A stretch of DNA of 64,000 nucleotides from a bacterium (GTDB lineage Bacteria; Bacillota; Clostridia; Lachnospirales; Lachnospiraceae), in contig JAMPCE010000011.1 of the NCBI GenBank assembly GCA_023666335.1, positions 1 to 64,000 of the forward strand, given 5' to 3'. Shown here in pieces: positions 9,801 to 21,927 of this stretch. Each line of letters opens with the position of its first letter. The first letter of the stretch is position 1. The translations under genes were made by a program, and so were the position numbers. Below the pieces are notes generated by a model. It made no database searches. It saw only the letters and a program-made list of their open reading frames with translations, and was not told the DNA's origin.

Positions 9801-10523
9801 CTAACGCACCTCCGTTTCACTTTGTACAGATGATGGTATTCCGTCAGAAAGAATACGACCGTCCGCCAGAATGATCGTGCGCTCCGCCATCTGCGCGATT
9901 TCCTCATTGTGCGTGATGACAACCAGAGTCTGACCGTACTTTTTTGCGGAGGCTTTTAGGAGCATCATCACCTCGTCGCCCATTTTGGTGTCCAGATTTC
10001 CCGTCGGCTCGTCCGCCAGAATGATGGAAGGTTTTGCCGCGATCGCCCGCGCGATGGCGCAGCGCTGCTGTTGGCCGCCGGAGAGCGTGTTCGGGAGGTT
10101 TTTGACTTTCTCGGTCAATCCGAGCGTGGCAAGGATGTCGCGGATGAAAGCCTCATCTAACGGTTTGCCGTCCAGCCCTAACGGCAGAACGACATTTTCC
10201 CATACATTTAACGAGGGGATCAGATTGTACGACTGAAAAACAAAACCGATTTTGCGGCGGCGGATTCGGGAGAGTTCTTCTTCTTTGAAAGAAGCGATGT
10301 TTTCCCCGTCGATCCAGACCTTTCCCGCCGTCGGATTGTCCAGCGCGCCCAGCATGTGAAGGAGGGTAGACTTGCCGCTGCCGGACTTGCCGACGATGGA
10401 GACAAATTCTCCCTGCCTGATCTGTAAACTGATGTGATCCACGGCTTTCACGAGATTGTCGCCCGCGCCGTAGTACTTACATAGGTCTTCTGTTTTCAAA
10501 ATAATTTGCGCTTGTGCTGTCAT
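9801..10523 (-). CDS. ABC transporter ATP-binding protein, MacB/LolD type
   Basis: 240 aa cytoplasmic ATPase energising the FtsX-type permease encoded directly downstream. Seen: Walker [11 protein letters not shown]-loop in [10 protein letters not shown], signature LSGGQQQR, Walker B IILADEP, followed by TGNLD and the H-loop VVITHN. The LFxQ-SYNL and PTGNLDT segments are typical of MacB/LolD/FtsE-type ATPases. It has its own promoter at about 10690, and the palindromic element copy C lies in its leader. Confidence 0.93.
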
Positions 10524-10546
10524 ATGTATTCCGCCTTTCCTGTAAT

Positions 10547-10676
10547 TGTACAGATTAACATATCCATAAGCAGACTCTTGGAAGCCGTCAGCACTTAACG
10601 AAGTACTTTTGAGTTTAGTGCTGTTACGGCTGGAATGAAGCGCAAGCGGGTCTGCGTTGGATTGTTAATCTGTACA
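10547..10676 (-). repeat. Palindromic intercistronic element, copy C
   Basis: 130 bp between the kinase and ATPase genes. Outer arms TGTACAGATTAACA (10547-10560) and TGTTAATCTGTACA (10663-10676) are exact inverted repeats. Read on the minus strand the core is about three-quarters identical to copy D at 63090-63221. Its inner stem is AGCCGT/ACGGCT, where D has GGGCGT/ACGCCC and B has GAGCGT/ACGCTC. It lies in the sense direction of the minus-strand genes, right after the predicted transcription start. Confidence 0.8.
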
Positions 10677-10703
10677 TTATAGTATAAACGGCAAATCTTA
10701 CAA
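10676..10703 (-). promoter_or_regulatory. Promoter for the ABC exporter genes
   Basis: On the minus strand: -35 TTGTAA (10698-10703), 16-bp spacer, -10 TATAAT (10676-10681). The palindromic element starts right at the -10 box, so transcripts would begin with its left arm or just inside it. Confidence 0.55.
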
Positions 10704-10742
10704 TAACCTTACAGAGAGATGACCGGAATACAAGCGTCAAGA

Positions 10743-11999
10743 TCAGACCGGATTTTGCAACGGAAGCCGCACCTCGAAGACAGACCCCTCCCCCTCGGCG
10801 GCGTGCACCGTCACCGTACCGTGCTGCTCCTCGATGATCCGCCTGGCGAGATAAAGTCCCACGCCCGCCCCCTCGGACTGCCTGACGACGGGGTGGCTGC
10901 CGCGGTAGAAACGCGAAAAGATGCGATTGTAATCCTCTTTGGGAATGCCGATTCCCGCATCCGTGACTGATAACTGCACATAACTGTAAAAGGTCCGGAT
11001 ATTCAGAAAGATCCGGCTGCCTGCGGGGGAGTATTTGACGGCGTTATCCAGCAGATTGGCGACTGCCTCGGCGGTCCAATGCCTGTCCACGGAAAGCGTA
11101 AGATCGGCGGAATCTTCCGTATCCGCGCTGCGCACTTCTATGGAAATTTCTTTTTGCAGAGCCTTTTCATAAACGGTGTTTACGGCGTCTGTCAATAATT
11201 CCGACAGGGTGGTGTTTTCCGGGTGCAGGGAGATCAGGGAAGTTTCCAAACGGGAAATGTTGACCAAAGCAGTCAATAAATTTTCCAGTCTGTTCATCTG
11301 CATGGCGCATCTTTGCAGAAAATCTGTGCGCTCCTCCTCCGAATCGGATTCCAGACACATGGAAAAACAGCTTTTGAGCGCGCTGACCGGCGTTTTCAAC
11401 TGATGGGAAATATCCGTCACGAGCGTTTTGGTGCGGTCGCGCTCCTCGTTCAGCGTCTGCGTTTTCGCCGTCAGCTTATTGCCCAATTTCAGGAGCGTGT
11501 CGGTGAAAGACGCATTAAAAATGACGGGAAAGGTTTCCGTGATTTCGGAAAGGGACGTATCCTCCGAAAGCCAACTGTCGAGCAGGGCGTGGAGCCGCGC
11601 TTCCGTTTCCCGCTGGCGGCGGCTAAGTTCAAAGAAGCAGAGACCGACCAAAGCCAGACTGAGGAAGAGAAACAAGGTCAGACCGGTCAGAAACCGGGCG
11701 AGCGCGGTGCGGTAATCAGGGCTGTCCGTCATCCGCAGATCGCGCCGATAGCCGTATTTTTGCAGGATTGCCCAGCCTTCGTCCGTGTGGCGGTACTGCG
11801 TATCCTGCAAAGCGGACAACAGGATATCTTCCGCTTCGGGATAGGCGGTAAGAACCGCTCCCGTGAGGCTGCCGATCTGTGAAAGTTCCCGCGTATGCCG
11901 GGCATTCAACAGAGAAACGCCCCATATGCCGCAGCAGACAAAGAAAAGCAGAGAGACCAGCGAAATGAGGATGCAGTATTTTTTCATTTCCTTTTTCAT
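10743..11999 (-). CDS. Sensor histidine kinase
   Basis: 418 aa membrane kinase. Two transmembrane helices (about residues 9-30 and 103-125) enclose an extracellular loop of ~70 aa. The dimerisation/phosphoacceptor helix has His199 in DISHQLKTP. The ATPase part shows N-box LLDNAVKYS, G1 DAGIGIP and G2 GAGVGLYLAR. Its start codon overlaps the stop of the response-regulator gene by 4 bp, so they are translationally coupled. The ABC exporter downstream is the likely target operon. Confidence 0.93.
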   Translation of the reverse strand: MKKEMKKYCILISLVSLLFFVCCGIWGVSLLNARHTRELSQIGSLTGAVLTAYPEAEDILLSALQDTQYRHTDEGWAILQKYGYRRDLRMTDSPDYRTALARFLTGLTLFLFLSLALVGLCFFELSRRQRETEARLHALLDSWLSEDTSLSEITETFPVIFNASFTDTLLKLGNKLTAKTQTLNEERDRTKTLVTDISHQLKTPVSALKSCFSMCLESDSEEERTDFLQRCAMQMNRLENLLTALVNISRLETSLISLHPENTTLSELLTDAVNTVYEKALQKEISIEVRSADTEDSADLTLSVDRHWTAEAVANLLDNAVKYSPAGSRIFLNIRTFYSYVQLSVTDAGIGIPKEDYNRIFSRFYRGSHPVVRQSEGAGVGLYLARRIIEEQHGTVTVHAAEGEGSVFEVRLPLQNPV

Positions 12000-16050: not shown

Positions 16051-16131
16051 TTCTCCGAAAAAGAAGCGGAGCAGGTATTCTTCGGGCAGAAAGGCATAAA
16101 CTGTAATAAGGTTTCCGGCATGGAGGATTTC

Positions 16132-16746
16132 ATGCTGAATTATATCTGGGCATTTATGATTTTGATCGGCGTCGTCTACGGCGCGTTTACCGGAAAGATG
16201 GCGGAGGTGACGAACGCCGCGCTGGAATCCGCGGGCGACGCGGTGTCCCTGTGCATCACGATGATCGGCGTGATGGCGCTGTGGGTGGGGCTGATGGAGA
16301 TCGCGCAGAAGTCGGGTCTGATCGCAAAGCTGACGAAAGGCGTCCAGCCTTTTATCAGCTTTCTTTTCCCGCGGATTCCCAGAGAGCATCCCGCCAGAGA
16401 GTATATCGCCACGAACCTGATCGCGAATGTGCTGGGGCTTGGCTGGGCGTGCACCCCGGCGGGGTTAAAAGCAATGGAGGAGCTGGCAAAACTGGAAGCG
16501 GAGCGGGGAAACCCTGCGTATCTGCCGGCGGGCAGACAGGAGCGGGTCGCCAGCAATGAGATGTGCACGTTTCTGATCTTGAATATCTCGTCCTTGCAGT
16601 TGATTCCGGTCAATATGATCGCGTACCGCAGCCAGTACGGCAGCGTGAATCCCGCGGGGATCATTGCGCCCGCGATCCTGGCGACATTTGTGAGTACGGC
16701 GGTGGCGGTGGCGTATTGTAAAGTTATGGGAAGAAAATATGATTAA
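16132..16746 (+). CDS. spmA: Spore maturation protein A (nucleoside-recognition/gate domain membrane protein)
   Basis: 204 aa membrane protein. The ATG at 16132 is chosen because GGAGG lies exactly five bases upstream; that GGAGG is inside the codons that follow an alternative ATG at 16120. The gate motif ATNLIANVLGLGWACTP and the NEMCTF...QLIP segment are typical of SpmA. In sporulating bacilli SpmA and SpmB act in spore-core dehydration and are encoded side by side. Here spmB lies 33 kb downstream, and the AT-rich methyltransferase island begins directly after spmA. Confidence 0.87.
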   Translation: MLNYIWAFMILIGVVYGAFTGKMAEVTNAALESAGDAVSLCITMIGVMALWVGLMEIAQKSGLIAKLTKGVQPFISFLFPRIPREHPAREYIATNLIANVLGLGWACTPAGLKAMEELAKLEAERGNPAYLPAGRQERVASNEMCTFLILNISSLQLIPVNMIAYRSQYGSVNPAGIIAPAILATFVSTAVAVAYCKVMGRKYD

Positions 16747-16842
16747 TGAGTTTGTTGTAGTAAGTCGAAAAAGAATTATTGCATAAATAATTGTCGAATA
16801 TTGTTGTTTTTGTTTAGTTTTGTTTAGTTAGGGCGATTTTTG

Positions 16843-16872
16843 TTGATGTTTATATGATCCTTATGTTATAAT
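16843..16872 (+). promoter_or_regulatory. Promoter of the methyltransferase operon
   Basis: -35 TTGATG (16843-16848), 18-bp spacer, -10 TATAAT (16867-16872), in the AT-rich gap after spmA. A TGTTTAGTTT direct repeat lies just upstream (16811-16830). Confidence 0.5.
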
Positions 16873-16936
16873 TAATAAAATATTAATGTAATTATGGACA
16901 CAATATATTGAATAGTAAAGAGAAGGAGTAACGGAT

Positions 16937-17251
16937 ATGTATGCGTATATGACTTCAAGGGTTCGTAATTACAATGAGCTAATAAATTTTTGTAAAATAT
17001 GTAAAGAACTAAGACCTATAAACGTGGAGATTATTAAAGAAATAAATTTGAGAAATGATGAATTATTTTTTTTCTTAAAGGATTTTAAAAGAAATCAAAA
17101 TTGGATGTTTCCATATGTGAATCGAATGAGTAAAATTGTAGATGGTAAGTGGCAATGCCTTTTATTAGCATCAGATAAGTTAAAAGCGCCAATTGTTATA
17201 TATTCAAACATGTGTTTGTATCCGCAATATGTTGGGATCTTACAAAAATGA
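16937..17251 (+). CDS. Small unknown protein heading the methyltransferase operon
   Basis: 104 aa, not recognised. The start is well supported by AAGGAG upstream. It is basic and aromatic, with FKRNQNWMFPYVNRM and CLLLASDKLKAPIVIYSN segments, and has no signal peptide, membrane helix, zinc knuckle or evident helix-turn-helix. It ends 13 bp before the methyltransferase start, so it is part of the same AT-rich operon. It could be a specificity or control subunit of the system, but nothing in the sequence proves that. Confidence 0.6.
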   Translation: MYAYMTSRVRNYNELINFCKICKELRPINVEIIKEINLRNDELFFFLKDFKRNQNWMFPYVNRMSKIVDGKWQCLLLASDKLKAPIVIYSNMCLYPQYVGILQK

Positions 17252-17264
17252 AAGCAGGTATACT

Positions 17265-18500
17265 ATGAATCAGTTTGATTATATTGATATTTTTGCTGGA
17301 TGTGGTGGTCTTTCTCTGGGGTTGCATAATGCGGGGTGGGAAGGTTTGTTTGCTATAGAAAAGAGTAAAGATGCGTTTGCCACGCTCAAATATAATTTAA
17401 TAGATAAAAGAAATCATTTTTGCTGGAATGAGTGGCTTCCACAGACAGAACATGATATTAATGAGGTAATTAAAACTTATAAGAAAGAATTAAAAGAACT
17501 TGAAGGTAAAGTGAATTTAGTTGTAGGAGGTCCGCCATGCCAGGGATTTTCAATGGCAGGTCAAAGGAAAAAGAATGATATAAGGAATGAATTAAGTAAA
17601 TCATATATTGAGTTTATAAGCATTGTGAAACCTAAAATATTGGTTTTTGAAAATGTTCAGGGATTTACAATTGGTTTCAAAGATGAAGATGATAAGAAGA
17701 GGATTCCTTTTTCAAAGATTTTAAAAGAGAAGTTAGAAAAACTAGGGTATTCTGTAGAGGGAAAAATGGTAGATATTTCTAATTTTGGAGTACCACAAAA
17801 AAGGAACAGATTTATTATGGTGGGTGTTTTGGAAGGAAATCCACATATTTTTTTTGAACTGCTTTACAATAATAAAAAGAAATTTTTAGAAAGCAAAGGA
17901 TTAAAGGAAAAAATTTCGGTTAAAGAGGCAATTGGAGATTTGCTGAAAGGAAATGGAACAGTACCTACTCCGGATTTTAAACATTATGAATCAGGTGTTT
18001 ATGGAGAAATAACAAGCAGCTATCAGAAGCTTATGAGAAAAGAAATGGGAAGTGTAGAGGGGACGGTTGCAGATAGCCATAGATTTGCGAAGCATTCAGA
18101 AGAAACGATAAAAATAAATAAGGAAATGTTACAAAAATGTCCTAAATTGAAACGAGTGACACCTAAGGATCATTTGGTAGAGAATCTGAGGAAACGGGGA
18201 GTAACCGTATTGGATGAGAATAAAGGCGCTCCTACAGTTACAGCACATCCGGATGATTTTGTTCATTACAGTGAACCGAGGATATTGACGGTACGCGAAT
18301 CAGCACGTATACAGAGTTTTCCGGATGACTTTGAGTTTAAAGGAAAGTATACGACAGGAGGACAATTAAGGAAAATTGAAGTACCAAGATGCACGCAGGT
18401 TGGGAATGCCGTGCCGCCTTTGTTTGCGGAACAGGTTGGACTTGCCTTAAAGGAGATGATAAAGAGTGGATCAGCGAGAGCAGAATTACCTTCAGTTTAG
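17265..18500 (+). CDS. DNA (cytosine-5) methyltransferase
   Basis: 411 aa from the ATG at 17265; an earlier frame start would overlap the preceding gene without a ribosome site. C5-methyltransferase motifs appear in order: I DIFAGCGGLSLGL, IV GGPPCQGFS with the catalytic Cys, VI ENVQGF, VIII QKRNRFIMVG, a variable target-recognition stretch, IX-like ARIQSFPDDF, and X QVGNAVPP. All catalytic motifs look intact. There is no restriction endonuclease or Vsr gene beside it; instead it overlaps a dual-GHKL ATPase gene by 35 bp. Composition is markedly AT-rich, suggesting transfer. Confidence 0.95.
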   Translation: MNQFDYIDIFAGCGGLSLGLHNAGWEGLFAIEKSKDAFATLKYNLIDKRNHFCWNEWLPQTEHDINEVIKTYKKELKELEGKVNLVVGGPPCQGFSMAGQRKKNDIRNELSKSYIEFISIVKPKILVFENVQGFTIGFKDEDDKKRIPFSKILKEKLEKLGYSVEGKMVDISNFGVPQKRNRFIMVGVLEGNPHIFFELLYNNKKKFLESKGLKEKISVKEAIGDLLKGNGTVPTPDFKHYESGVYGEITSSYQKLMRKEMGSVEGTVADSHRFAKHSEETIKINKEMLQKCPKLKRVTPKDHLVENLRKRGVTVLDENKGAPTVTAHPDDFVHYSEPRILTVRESARIQSFPDDFEFKGKYTTGGQLRKIEVPRCTQVGNAVPPLFAEQVGLALKEMIKSGSARAELPSV

Positions 18501-20781
18501 GGTCAGCACGGCACTGAAAAGCATTATCGGAAAAGACTTGATTAATGATAAATATATCGCGGTATTTGAGTTAGTAAAAAATGCCTATGATGCTGGTGCA
18601 AGCCTTGTGGAAATTACTTTTGAAAATATGAATACCCCAACCTCCAGGTTAATTATTAAAGATGATGGCAAAGGAATGAATCTGGCTGACATTAGAGACA
18701 AATGGCTTTTTATTGCTTATTCCGAGAAAAAAAAAGAGAGCAGGAAAGAGGCACGGAATCAAGATGTTGGTATAAACGATTACAGGGACTTGATCAAAAG
18801 AAAAATGGCAGGAGCAAAAGGCGTCGGGAGGTTTTCGTGCGATCGTTTAGGTGCAAAGGTTAAATTAAAATCAAAGACAGAGAGTGATGAAGCCATTAAC
18901 TTTCTGAATATCGACTGGAGCGAGTTTGAAGTTGATGACGAGCGCGAAATTAAAGAAATAGAGGTTCAATATTCCAGTCTGCCGGCAGAGAAATTTGCAC
19001 ATGGAACTATATTGGAAATATGCGAATTAAGAGAGCAGTGGAAACGTGCGGATTTTCTTGCGCTGAAAAGAGCATTAATGAAGCTGATTAATCCGGAAAA
19101 TGATCTTGCGGATGATTGCTTTGAAATTTATTTAAACGTTGAAAGTGAATTGAGTGAAGATTTCGGAAAAGAAAGAGATAATGAAAAAGTAAATGGTAAG
19201 ATTACGAATGACATTATCGAAAAGTTAGGATTAAAAACAACGAATTTGGAAGTTCAAATATCAGAAGACGGAGAAACAGTTACTACAGAATTGTGGGACA
19301 GGGGGGAATTTATATTTAAATTTCAGGAAAAGAATGAAAAATATACTAGATTAAAAAATATCAAGTTCAAGTTATTGTATTTAAATAGAAGTGCAAAATA
19401 TAATTTTTCTTTAGTGATGGGAATGACCCCCGTGAATTATGGTTCAGTAATGGTTTATAAAAACGGTTTTAGAATATATCCATATGGTGAGCCGGGGGAA
19501 GATTTATTTTATATTGACAGAAGAAAAAGCCAGGGAAGAAACCGTTATCTGGGAACGCGGGATATTATTGGCAGAATATTAATATTAGGAGAAAATAATG
19601 ATTTTGTGGAAACAACAAGCAGGGATGGCGGATTTGTATTCAATGAAACGGTAAGTATGTTCTATGACTTTTTTACAAGAAGAGTATTAAGAACACTGGA
19701 AAAATATGTCGTGGATGTGATTAACTGGGGAGATCCGGAGAAGGAGGAGTTTGGAAGAGGGGTTGAGCAGGGGCTTATGCCTAGGGACGTTGCAGGAAAA
19801 ATATTAGAGCAGTTTGCCGGATACAGTAATTTAAAAAGGCATGATTTAATTTCGTTTGAATATAATGAAAACCTTATTGAAAAAATGAATGAAAAAAAAG
19901 CTGACGGGGTGGAAGCGTCTGTACAAAAAATCATTAATATTGCGAATAAGACAGAAAATAATGTATTGTTGGAACTGGCGGGCAGGGTAAAACGCGATAC
20001 ATCCAAATTATTGCAGCAAAAACAGGAAGCAGATGTTGAATTAGAAAATGTACAGAGTAAACTGGATGTTGCGCATAAAGAAATAAGCATCAGAAAAGAA
20101 CAGAATTTTTTCTTGGAGCAGGCTGTTAATAAGAATGAAAAGTATTTATTAAATGGTATGCATCTTAATTTTACATATTCAGAAGGGGCAAGAGGGAGTC
20201 TTATTGATTTAATGGATACTCTCAATGAAAAGGGTATCGATGATGAACTGATTCAGCAGTTTATATCAGAGATTATGGTTAATATACAAAAAATAAATAA
20301 GACATCAGAATATGCCATTAAAGGCAATTTTAATTTGAAATCAACAGAAACTGAAAATGATATCAGAGATTTTATTTCCCAATATATCGGTATGTCGAAA
20401 TATAAGGGAATTAAAATTTCATTGGATTCTGATTTGAATGAGAAGTATATGTGTGTGTTTGACGTTTCCTCGATAGGAATTATTCTTGATAATATAGTAA
20501 GTAATGCCAGGAAAGCTGCTGCAAATACATTATTAGTTCAATTTATAAAGGAAACAGACAATATAATTATAAAATTTATAGATAATGGCAAGGGTCTGGA
20601 TCCAATGATAAAAGATTTGGATACATTATTTGAGTTAGGTGTTACAACAACAAAAGAGCAGGGAGGTAATGGAATTGGACTAAACCATATAAAGCTGCTC
20701 GTAGAAGACATGAATGGTTTGGTTTCGATCAATGAGCATTGTAAAACAGGGTTTGAATTAATAGTGAGGATCAAAAGATGA
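18466..20781 (+). CDS. Dual GHKL protein: Hsp90/MORC-like ATPase fused to a histidine-kinase module
   Basis: 771 aa, no membrane helix. The GTG start at 18466 lies inside the methyltransferase gene, with AGGAG upstream. Residues ~20-160 form a first GHKL ATPase: VFELVKNAYDAGAS (N box), IIKDDGKGM (G1), GAKGVGRFSCDRLG. A middle S5-like/unknown region follows, then a coiled coil (~515-560). His566 in NGMHLNF is a candidate phosphoacceptor. Residues ~650-771 form a second GHKL domain with LDNIVSNARKAA, IDNGKGL and GGNGIGL. It overlaps the receiver gene by 4 bp. ParaMORC-type ATPases are known from restriction-modification neighbourhoods; fusion to a kinase suggests signalling on DNA damage or invasion. 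Confidence 0.8.
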   Translation: MDQREQNYLQFRVSTALKSIIGKDLINDKYIAVFELVKNAYDAGASLVEITFENMNTPTSRLIIKDDGKGMNLADIRDKWLFIAYSEKKKESRKEARNQDVGINDYRDLIKRKMAGAKGVGRFSCDRLGAKVKLKSKTESDEAINFLNIDWSEFEVDDEREIKEIEVQYSSLPAEKFAHGTILEICELREQWKRADFLALKRALMKLINPENDLADDCFEIYLNVESELSEDFGKERDNEKVNGKITNDIIEKLGLKTTNLEVQISEDGETVTTELWDRGEFIFKFQEKNEKYTRLKNIKFKLLYLNRSAKYNFSLVMGMTPVNYGSVMVYKNGFRIYPYGEPGEDLFYIDRRKSQGRNRYLGTRDIIGRILILGENNDFVETTSRDGGFVFNETVSMFYDFFTRRVLRTLEKYVVDVINWGDPEKEEFGRGVEQGLMPRDVAGKILEQFAGYSNLKRHDLISFEYNENLIEKMNEKKADGVEASVQKIINIANKTENNVLLELAGRVKRDTSKLLQQKQEADVELENVQSKLDVAHKEISIRKEQNFFLEQAVNKNEKYLLNGMHLNFTYSEGARGSLIDLMDTLNEKGIDDELIQQFISEIMVNIQKINKTSEYAIKGNFNLKSTETENDIRDFISQYIGMSKYKGIKISLDSDLNEKYMCVFDVSSIGIILDNIVSNARKAAANTLLVQFIKETDNIIIKFIDNGKGLDPMIKDLDTLFELGVTTTKEQGGNGIGLNHIKLLVEDMNGLVSINEHCKTGFELIVRIKR

Positions 20782-21743
20782 ATGTGTTTTTTAAAGTGCT
20801 ATGGTTTGAAGATCAGGTTTTGTGGAGACCTGCTTCGGAACGAAAAGTGAGAGATATTATTGAGAGACATAATCTTTTGCCTGAGATTATGTGGAAAAAG
20901 GGAGATGAAGAAGATATAGAGGATGAATTGAAGAAAGACTATGACTTAATTCTTATGGACTATGAACTTCGTGGGGTTACTGGTAATATTCTGATAAGGC
21001 AATTGCGGCAGTTGGAGATTTATACAGATGTGTTATTTTATTCTGGTAATTATGAAGGAATGGTAAGAGCACTATATAATATTAATAACGATGCTCCGAG
21101 TATAGATCCGATAGACGGAGTATATTTTTCCAGCAGAAAAAGAGAGGAATTATTTCCTAAATTACAGAAAGTTATTGATAAAATAGTAAGAAGAATGCAG
21201 GATATTGTTAGTTTAAGAGGTGTAGTGCTGGATAATGTAAGCGGTTTTGAAAATCAAATGCAAAACATACTTGTGTTAGCTATTAATAAGTTTACGGAAG
21301 AGCAAAAAAAGAGCCTTAATAATTATGCAAAATCTAAATTAGTGACACCTGCCAAGAATGACTATATTAAAAGGATAGAGGAGATAGAAAGTAATTCGCA
21401 AGTTTTACAAGCGCTTGTAGGAGCTCCTGATTATTTCCTGGATTCATATAAAAAAGCTCGTTTAATTGGAAAGGTAATTAACATTTTAACGAGTGAATAT
21501 GGTGTAGATATAAATGAGAAATATAAAAGGTTTGCGAATGCATATAACGATGAAATTATAAAGTATAGAAATGCATTAGGTCATGCAATGCGAAATAATA
21601 GTAACGACAGAGAAATTTATGTTGGAGAAATCGATGGAAAACCAATTAGATTTAATGAAGAATTATTTCGAAAGTTGCGAGCAAGTATAAATGAATATCA
21701 AATAGTAATAAATGAAATAGAGGATGCATTTAATGATATATAG
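20778..21743 (+). CDS. Receiver-domain protein with a helical C-terminus carrying a HEPN-like R-x4-H motif
   Basis: 321 aa. Residues 1-125 are a receiver domain: acidic pair E11/D12, phosphoacceptor Asp61 in LILMDYEL, Ser89 in LFYSGN, and Lys121 as possible switch lysine. The C-terminal ~190 residues are not a DNA-binding output domain; they are helical and contain R264-N-A-L-G-H269 (YRNALGHA), which matches the RNxxxH signature of HEPN RNases and toxins. The ATGA overlap with the kinase gene makes them a cognate pair. My inference is a phosphorelay-gated RNase effector; HEPN assignment rests on one motif and helix pattern. Confidence 0.72.
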   Translation: MNVFFKVLWFEDQVLWRPASERKVRDIIERHNLLPEIMWKKGDEEDIEDELKKDYDLILMDYELRGVTGNILIRQLRQLEIYTDVLFYSGNYEGMVRALYNINNDAPSIDPIDGVYFSSRKREELFPKLQKVIDKIVRRMQDIVSLRGVVLDNVSGFENQMQNILVLAINKFTEEQKKSLNNYAKSKLVTPAKNDYIKRIEEIESNSQVLQALVGAPDYFLDSYKKARLIGKVINILTSEYGVDINEKYKRFANAYNDEIIKYRNALGHAMRNNSNDREIYVGEIDGKPIRFNEELFRKLRASINEYQIVINEIEDAFNDI

Positions 21744-21775
21744 TGGCAATTATTGATGGTTTACAACCAGCATAA

Positions 21776-21871
21776 TTGATTTTGCAATGGATTGTGAAAG
21801 CAGGAATTCATGAAACGATAGTCAATCCTGTGGAAAGAGCGCTCGATTATTTTGCATATGCATGTAAGTAG
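21776..21871 (+). other. Short open stretch, possible gene remnant
   Basis: The 184-bp gap after the receiver gene holds a 31-codon open frame without a start codon of its own (begins IL-QWIVKAGIHETIVNP, ends at TAG 21869-21871). It reads like a protein fragment and may be the decayed 3' end of a gene at the right border of the AT-rich island. The family is not recognised. Confidence 0.25.
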
Positions 21872-21927
21872 CAGCTTTTTCGGGATGGGAATAAAGGGAC
21901 ATCGACGATCGCAGCGGCGAAATGATC

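Follow-up and report, generated by a model that had tools for sequence, protein, structure and literature searches.

The window is the whole stretch of DNA that was analysed, 64,000 nucleotides of a contig from a member of the Lachnospiraceae. It carries an island of low GC content, 33-39% against 50-55% in the flanks, and this island holds four genes that all lie on the forward strand. They are called S, M, K and R here. The features, in positions of the window, are:

16120-16746, spmA-like gene; the island starts directly after it.
16747..21925, no strand, low-GC island, inserted directly 3' of the spmA-like gene; the right end is approximate.
16937..17251, plus strand, S, a small protein of 104 aa; an accessory gene of the Bacillota lineage, with homologues beside M in relatives.
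17265..18500, plus strand, M, a C5-cytosine DNA methyltransferase of 411 aa; PF00145 (DNA_methylase) at 2.7e-56, GPPCQGFS and ENV motifs.
18466..20781, plus strand, K, a soluble sensor kinase of 771 aa; PF13589 and PF02518, dual GHKL.
20778..21743, plus strand, R, a receiver with a HEPN-like all-alpha domain, 321 aa; receiver fold by AF2/Foldseek, invariant RNxxxH, HEPN Pfam matches in homologues.
21789..21817, plus strand, a 29-bp stretch with 28/29 identity to the last codons of a HEPN toxin that occupies the same site in locus L060.

The original prediction described four AT-rich genes with overlaps of 35 and 4 bp, and this is exact: M and K share 35 bp, K and R share 4 bp. The likely start of M is the ATG at 17265; the listed open reading frame opens at 17193. 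GC skew is +0.3 to +0.4 over 16937-21743 and lower in the flanks. Restriction endonuclease, helicase and Vsr genes are all absent from the island, again as had been said, and some relatives carry nuclease genes of this sort as optional extras (L026, L068, L073). An Rfam scan of 12-26 kb gave no match. Promoter and terminator scans stayed within what shuffled sequence gives, except for one extended -10 site (10/12) at 16843-16872, upstream of S.

Alignment of sibling genomes to the window holds until the end of spmA and then diverges. What follows spmA in the siblings is variable: L054 has a SIR2_2 protein and L048 an AAA_21 ATPase; L052, L055 and L058 have integrase-like proteins with weak Pfam support; and L060 has an MNT-HEPN toxin-antitoxin pair, after which the spmA 3' end occurs a second time. 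Within the genus (window 16120-16746; L045-L063) variable cargo is found at a hotspot, the 3' end of spmA, sometimes with a second spmA 3' end downstream. An older cargo was apparently replaced at this site: the 29 bp after R match the last codons of the L060 toxin, and the stretch at 21789-21817 is likely a remnant of that earlier cargo.

The spmA gene itself is split in some genomes. In G003, G023, G039, G049, G053 and G054 an N-terminal piece is cut off by an in-frame TGA at about codon 118, and in several genomes C-terminal pieces, starting from codon 111-112, are located elsewhere. This looks like integration within a sporulation gene.

Homologues of S adjoin M in five of the six related clostridial loci and in the viral contig L072, at 16-22% identity and with a common C-terminus, W.C...IVIYS..YP.Y. 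The S-like gene runs opposite to M in the clostridia, and on the same strand as M in the window and in L072. An AF2 model of S is alpha/beta (pLDDT 85) and has no fold match in the PDB. Two annotations of S, SAVED_TM (PADLOC, 1e-3) and neurotoxin-binding (Pfam, 0.055), were judged chance or generic matches.

K consists of an N-terminal paraMORC-type GHKL(+S5-like) ATPase, a coiled region, a DHp-like segment with His566, and a C-terminal HATPase_c domain. The proposal that K holds two GHKL units agrees with Pfam, which finds HATPase_c_3 at residues 31-181 (5e-24) and HATPase_c at 668-769 (6e-16). H566, N676, D706, G708, G710, G734, G736 and G738 are unvaried in 14/14 aligned K sequences. Identity to the window K is 45-47% for the six clostridial proteins and goes down to about 31% once the prophage and viral contigs are included. 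His566 stands about 110 residues before the invariant Asn of the N-box, with hardly any other conserved position around it. Most HisKA-type kinases have an acidic residue right after the core His. In the 14 aligned K sequences this residue is L, T, S or Q, never acidic. PADLOC has no matching system for K or R; its TmtA match to K (3e-4) was judged chance or a generic GHKL match.

R is made up of a receiver (residues 1 to about 120, with Asp61) and an all-helical part (about 130-321) that contains R264-N-A-L-G-H269. D12, D61, S89, R264, N265 and H269 are among the residues invariant in 15/15 aligned R sequences; in nearly all of them Arg120 takes the place of the usual receiver Lys. Identity of the window R to the clostridial ones is 35-37%, and among members it drops to 19% with the key residues still unvaried. 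The two-component residues are thereby intact on both sides, H566 with the N, G1 and G2 boxes in K, and D12, D61 and S89 in R, and the functional residues named in the original prediction (Asp61, His566, and R264, N265 and H269) all sit where it had placed them.

Every R protein of the clade (20/20) has the RNxxxH motif, against 0/44 receiver proteins of other branches of the K tree, and shuffles of the 20 proteins give an expectation of 0.39 occurrences in all. For five of the 20 the motif itself had contributed to the label; the cleanest count is that of the eight R proteins of L066-L073, which were found through K alone. The motif lies 52-64 residues from the C-terminus. Its retention in 20 diverged proteins is as expected of an active site.

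The HEPN superfamily is defined by a motif, Rx4-6H, in which a polar residue (N, D or H) follows the R and which sits where helix 3 ends, ahead of the loop into helix 4 (PMC3710099). R264-N265-x3-H269 has this pattern. An AF2 model of R from seven sequences (pLDDT 75) shows the receiver fold followed by helices only, save for a beta hairpin after the motif: R264-H269 is at the end of helix 252-268, then comes the hairpin, then helix 294-320. The topology fits the HEPN definition, since the motif is at a helix end before the last helix; pLDDT is 45 just past the motif. Whole-chain Foldseek of R returns receiver-type folds, without HEPN structures, and a PDB sequence search with the C-terminus gave no match.

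Profile searches, which had been suggested for each domain, gave a mixed result. They return DNA_methylase, HATPase_c_3 and HATPase_c, as well as Response_reg in R at 1e-4, under the gathering score, and no match of the window R to the HEPN Pfam models. Homologues of R do match such models, all under the gathering score: L067 with PF18735 (7e-4), L078 with PF13643 (3.6e-4) and the HepT-like ribonuclease PF01934 (2.9e-3), and L069 with PF18737 (0.11). With a profile built from clostridial C-termini only, all eight other C-termini score better than 900 shuffled decoys, and the hhalign probability is 99%. The clostridial and prophage C-termini are homologous, given this non-circular ranking and the hhalign result; the link from the L078 C-terminus to that of the window R is weak. 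The C-terminus of R is likely a HEPN domain, which the original prediction had proposed and which topology, the invariant motif, the matches in homologues and neighbouring RNA-repair phosphatases (below) all favour. By its residues, R is a putative metal-independent HEPN RNase.

M-K-R is a real conserved unit. Co-occurrence of the genes elsewhere had been named as a check, and they are found together in 6 clostridial loci and 12 prophage or viral contigs. Three R sequences, run against genome contigs, returned the six clostridial loci L028-L033, all with M, K and R in the same order (L028 and L032 are contigs of L027 and L026). A scan of viral contigs with a K alignment returned L066-L073, each with M, K and R. 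A second scan found 54 K-like loci; in five further ones among them (L074, L076-L079) K is accompanied by a motif-bearing R; in L079 there is no M in the contig, which ends just after R. The position of M varies: it can lie upstream in the same orientation, or to either side in the opposite orientation. Relatives surfaced only with K or R alignments as query, and the window R alone found no match in plasmids and viral contigs. The R family is rare in Bacillota, since an R profile run on 399 genomes of the phylum matched the window alone.

The relatives are carried on mobile elements, which also encode a relaxase, an integrase or a transposase. Among the prophage copies there are endolysin and tail genes beside L068, an endolysin in L071, a repressor beside L070 and an integrase beside L073. 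The S-M-K-R cassette is horizontally mobile. In L072 (7989-11972) an insertion sequence splits K, and S, M and R are intact.

Some copies have further enzymes nearby. A gene for a PNKP-type polynucleotide 3'-phosphatase lies directly downstream of R in L066 (11425-11880, after a 2-bp gap) and in L074 (11380-11832, with a 4-bp overlap). These match PF25109 at 4e-31 and 1e-36, and their closest solved chains are bacterial Pnkp1 and T4 polynucleotide kinase. Polynucleotide 3'-phosphatases heal phosphate-bearing RNA ends, the type left by HEPN RNases, so their place directly after R supports RNA cleavage by R; phages also carry such genes for other reasons. L026 has an AspBHI-like restriction endonuclease at 9861-11141 (PF18062 at 2e-52, plus Mrr_cat), 450 bp downstream of R, and there is a Vsr gene near L068 and an HNH gene near L073. 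These are optional and not conserved, and they leave room for a nuclease that acts elsewhere.

The combination of genes is not entirely new. The original prediction knew of no standard system that it fits, yet pairs of HEF_HK (PF19191) and Response_reg_2 (PF19192) with C5 methylases were published in 2021, with paraMORC ancestry suggested, a starting response regulator of 600 aa and no output domain reported (PMC8011034). These share with the window a soluble kinase of paraMORC ancestry built as HATPase_c_3, DHp and HATPase_c, an atypical receiver protein and a neighbouring C5 methylase. They differ in the residue after the core His, which is Glu or Asp in HEF_HK but L, T, S or Q after His566 and its counterparts, and in the receiver protein: R proteins of the window family have a length of about 300-320 aa and a HEPN-like domain, in contrast to the 600 aa regulator, which has no known output. 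Neither K nor R of the window matches PF19191 or PF19192 at E <= 1. PF19192 does show up in distant homologues below threshold (L125 at 2.5e-3, L076 at 0.026), and a Response_reg_2 search of 295 relatives gave none above the cut-off. In the K tree the clade of the window K is separate from L106, the sole surveyed member with a weak HEF_HK match.

A second precedent dates from 2013, when a Ymh HEPN domain was described as fused to the C-terminus of a paraMORC ATPase in restriction-modification loci (PMC3710099). It likewise links a paraMORC ATPase to HEPN in a modification locus; in the window, however, the HEPN domain is on a separate protein behind a receiver, and a kinase module is added. 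Detocs is a two-component anti-phage system whose effector, an enzyme of the purine nucleoside phosphorylase type, degrades ATP. By description it follows the same logic from kinase and receiver to a death effector, and by description it is set apart by another sensor, another effector and the lack of a methylase. VcSduA, a Shedu protein with a GHKL (paraMORC3) domain, also ties such an ATPase to an anti-phage nuclease, but as a single protein with a PD-(D/E)xK nuclease and without kinase, receiver or methylase (PMC12137116). Among the predicted and unvalidated defence systems of the 2026 DefensePredictor screen there are some with HATPase and REC domains (PMC13092281); these are domain types that the window system shares, and its lineage may be among them. 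A search of the open-access literature turned up no description of a paraMORC kinase and a methylase together with a receiver-HEPN protein. The system is a variant of the theme published in 2021: a separate lineage of paraMORC kinase, receiver and C5 methylase with receiver-HEPN output.

As to function, we lean slightly towards a mobile, restriction-like defence module in which an RNase controlled by a phosphorelay takes the place of a restriction endonuclease. M would methylate a cytosine motif in the host genome. The N-terminal paraMORC ATPase clamp of K probably engages DNA, and K would respond to DNA that is unmethylated, foreign or otherwise perturbed. Its C-terminal kinase would then phosphorylate His566, from where the phosphate would pass to Asp61 of R. 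This might free or dimerise the HEPN domain, so that the Arg264-Asn265-His269 site could cut RNA without a metal, and growth arrest or an aborted infection would follow. S may modulate expression or activity in the Bacillota lineage. Counting against this reading are the lack of a HEPN match for the window R itself, the receiver-type folds returned for its whole chain, the low pLDDT past the motif, the non-acidic residue after His566, and the optional nuclease genes near some copies. The interpretation first offered for this locus is supported in part: the genes, domains and residues hold, and for phosphotransfer, RNase activity, trigger and the effect on phage we infer what the arrangement suggests.

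The same biochemistry could also serve a selfish addiction module, a close rival of the defence reading that we nevertheless think unlikely. Were M lost, newly replicated DNA would become unmethylated, K would fire, and the RNase would kill or arrest the cell; phage defence would then be incidental. Type II restriction-modification modules act in this way (discussed in PMC8011034), and the carriage of relatives on mobile elements agrees with it. The varied defence-type cargo after spmA and the location in prophages suit defence too; the observations fit either reading. It is also conceivable, and rather improbable, that K restrains R, with phosphorylated R inactive and the RNase released once signalling stops, much like a toxin-antitoxin pair. 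The sign of receiver control is not readable from sequence, and some HEPN toxins are under control of a partner enzyme, as in MNT-HEPN pairs (PMC3710099). The split K of L072 hints weakly at an R that is non-toxic without K, which would speak against such restraint, but polarity could silence R there.

Lastly, the genes might form a regulatory two-component system that tunes expression of the methylase or of restriction-modification genes, with the helical domain binding RNA or protein and not cutting. Such control was proposed for HEF_HK/Response_reg_2 (PMC8011034), and catalytically dead, RNA-binding HEPN domains exist (PMC3710099). Against this stand the absolute conservation of RN and H across diverged R proteins, the PNKP phosphatase neighbours, and sister systems in which a caspase/CHAT-like protein replaces the output of R; we hold it to be an outside chance.

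The defence reading would, if true, connect the marking of self DNA by methylation with two-component signalling and with an RNase as effector. The pairs of paraMORC kinase and receiver that had been predicted next to methylases, with no function assigned, would gain one, and it would become directly testable what the MORC-like ATPases of bacteria sense. The presence of M-K-R both in a cassette of a gut bacterium and in unrelated prophages suggests an anti-phage device.

The sister systems point to one methylase-kinase scaffold with exchangeable outputs. L075 and L097 have an M and a K close to the window family, followed by a short receiver and then a separate HG...C protein (L075 11229-11894; L097 10238-10906). 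In a 61-row tree their K proteins nest within the HEPN clade, with SH-aLRT support of 95 at the enclosing fork and 91 at the next one, and an effector swap is consistent with this position. L037 (8803-9480) has the same arrangement and is a long-branch basal row. The HG...C reading frames have no Pfam or meaningful PDB match; they may be caspase/CHAT-like (clan CD), a label taken from the HG...C pattern alone. A widespread class of 'signalled restriction' is a tentative idea that falls somewhat short of an even chance: a paraMORC histidine kinase would read methylation and pass phosphate on to swappable death effectors. Perhaps these would be a HEPN RNase in the window system and a caspase/CHAT-like protein in the sister systems, and the RNA 3'-phosphatase of some copies could, just as tentatively, heal self-damage.

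Viral contigs hold many other pairs of paraMORC kinase and receiver (L080-L119 except the rows of the HEPN clade). Their partner proteins are long (340-613 aa) or receiver-only, and the output region is mostly without Pfam assignment. An archaeal example, on the Halomicrobium plasmid pLC1Hm-01 (L039), has a K-like/receiver pair near an N6 methylase.
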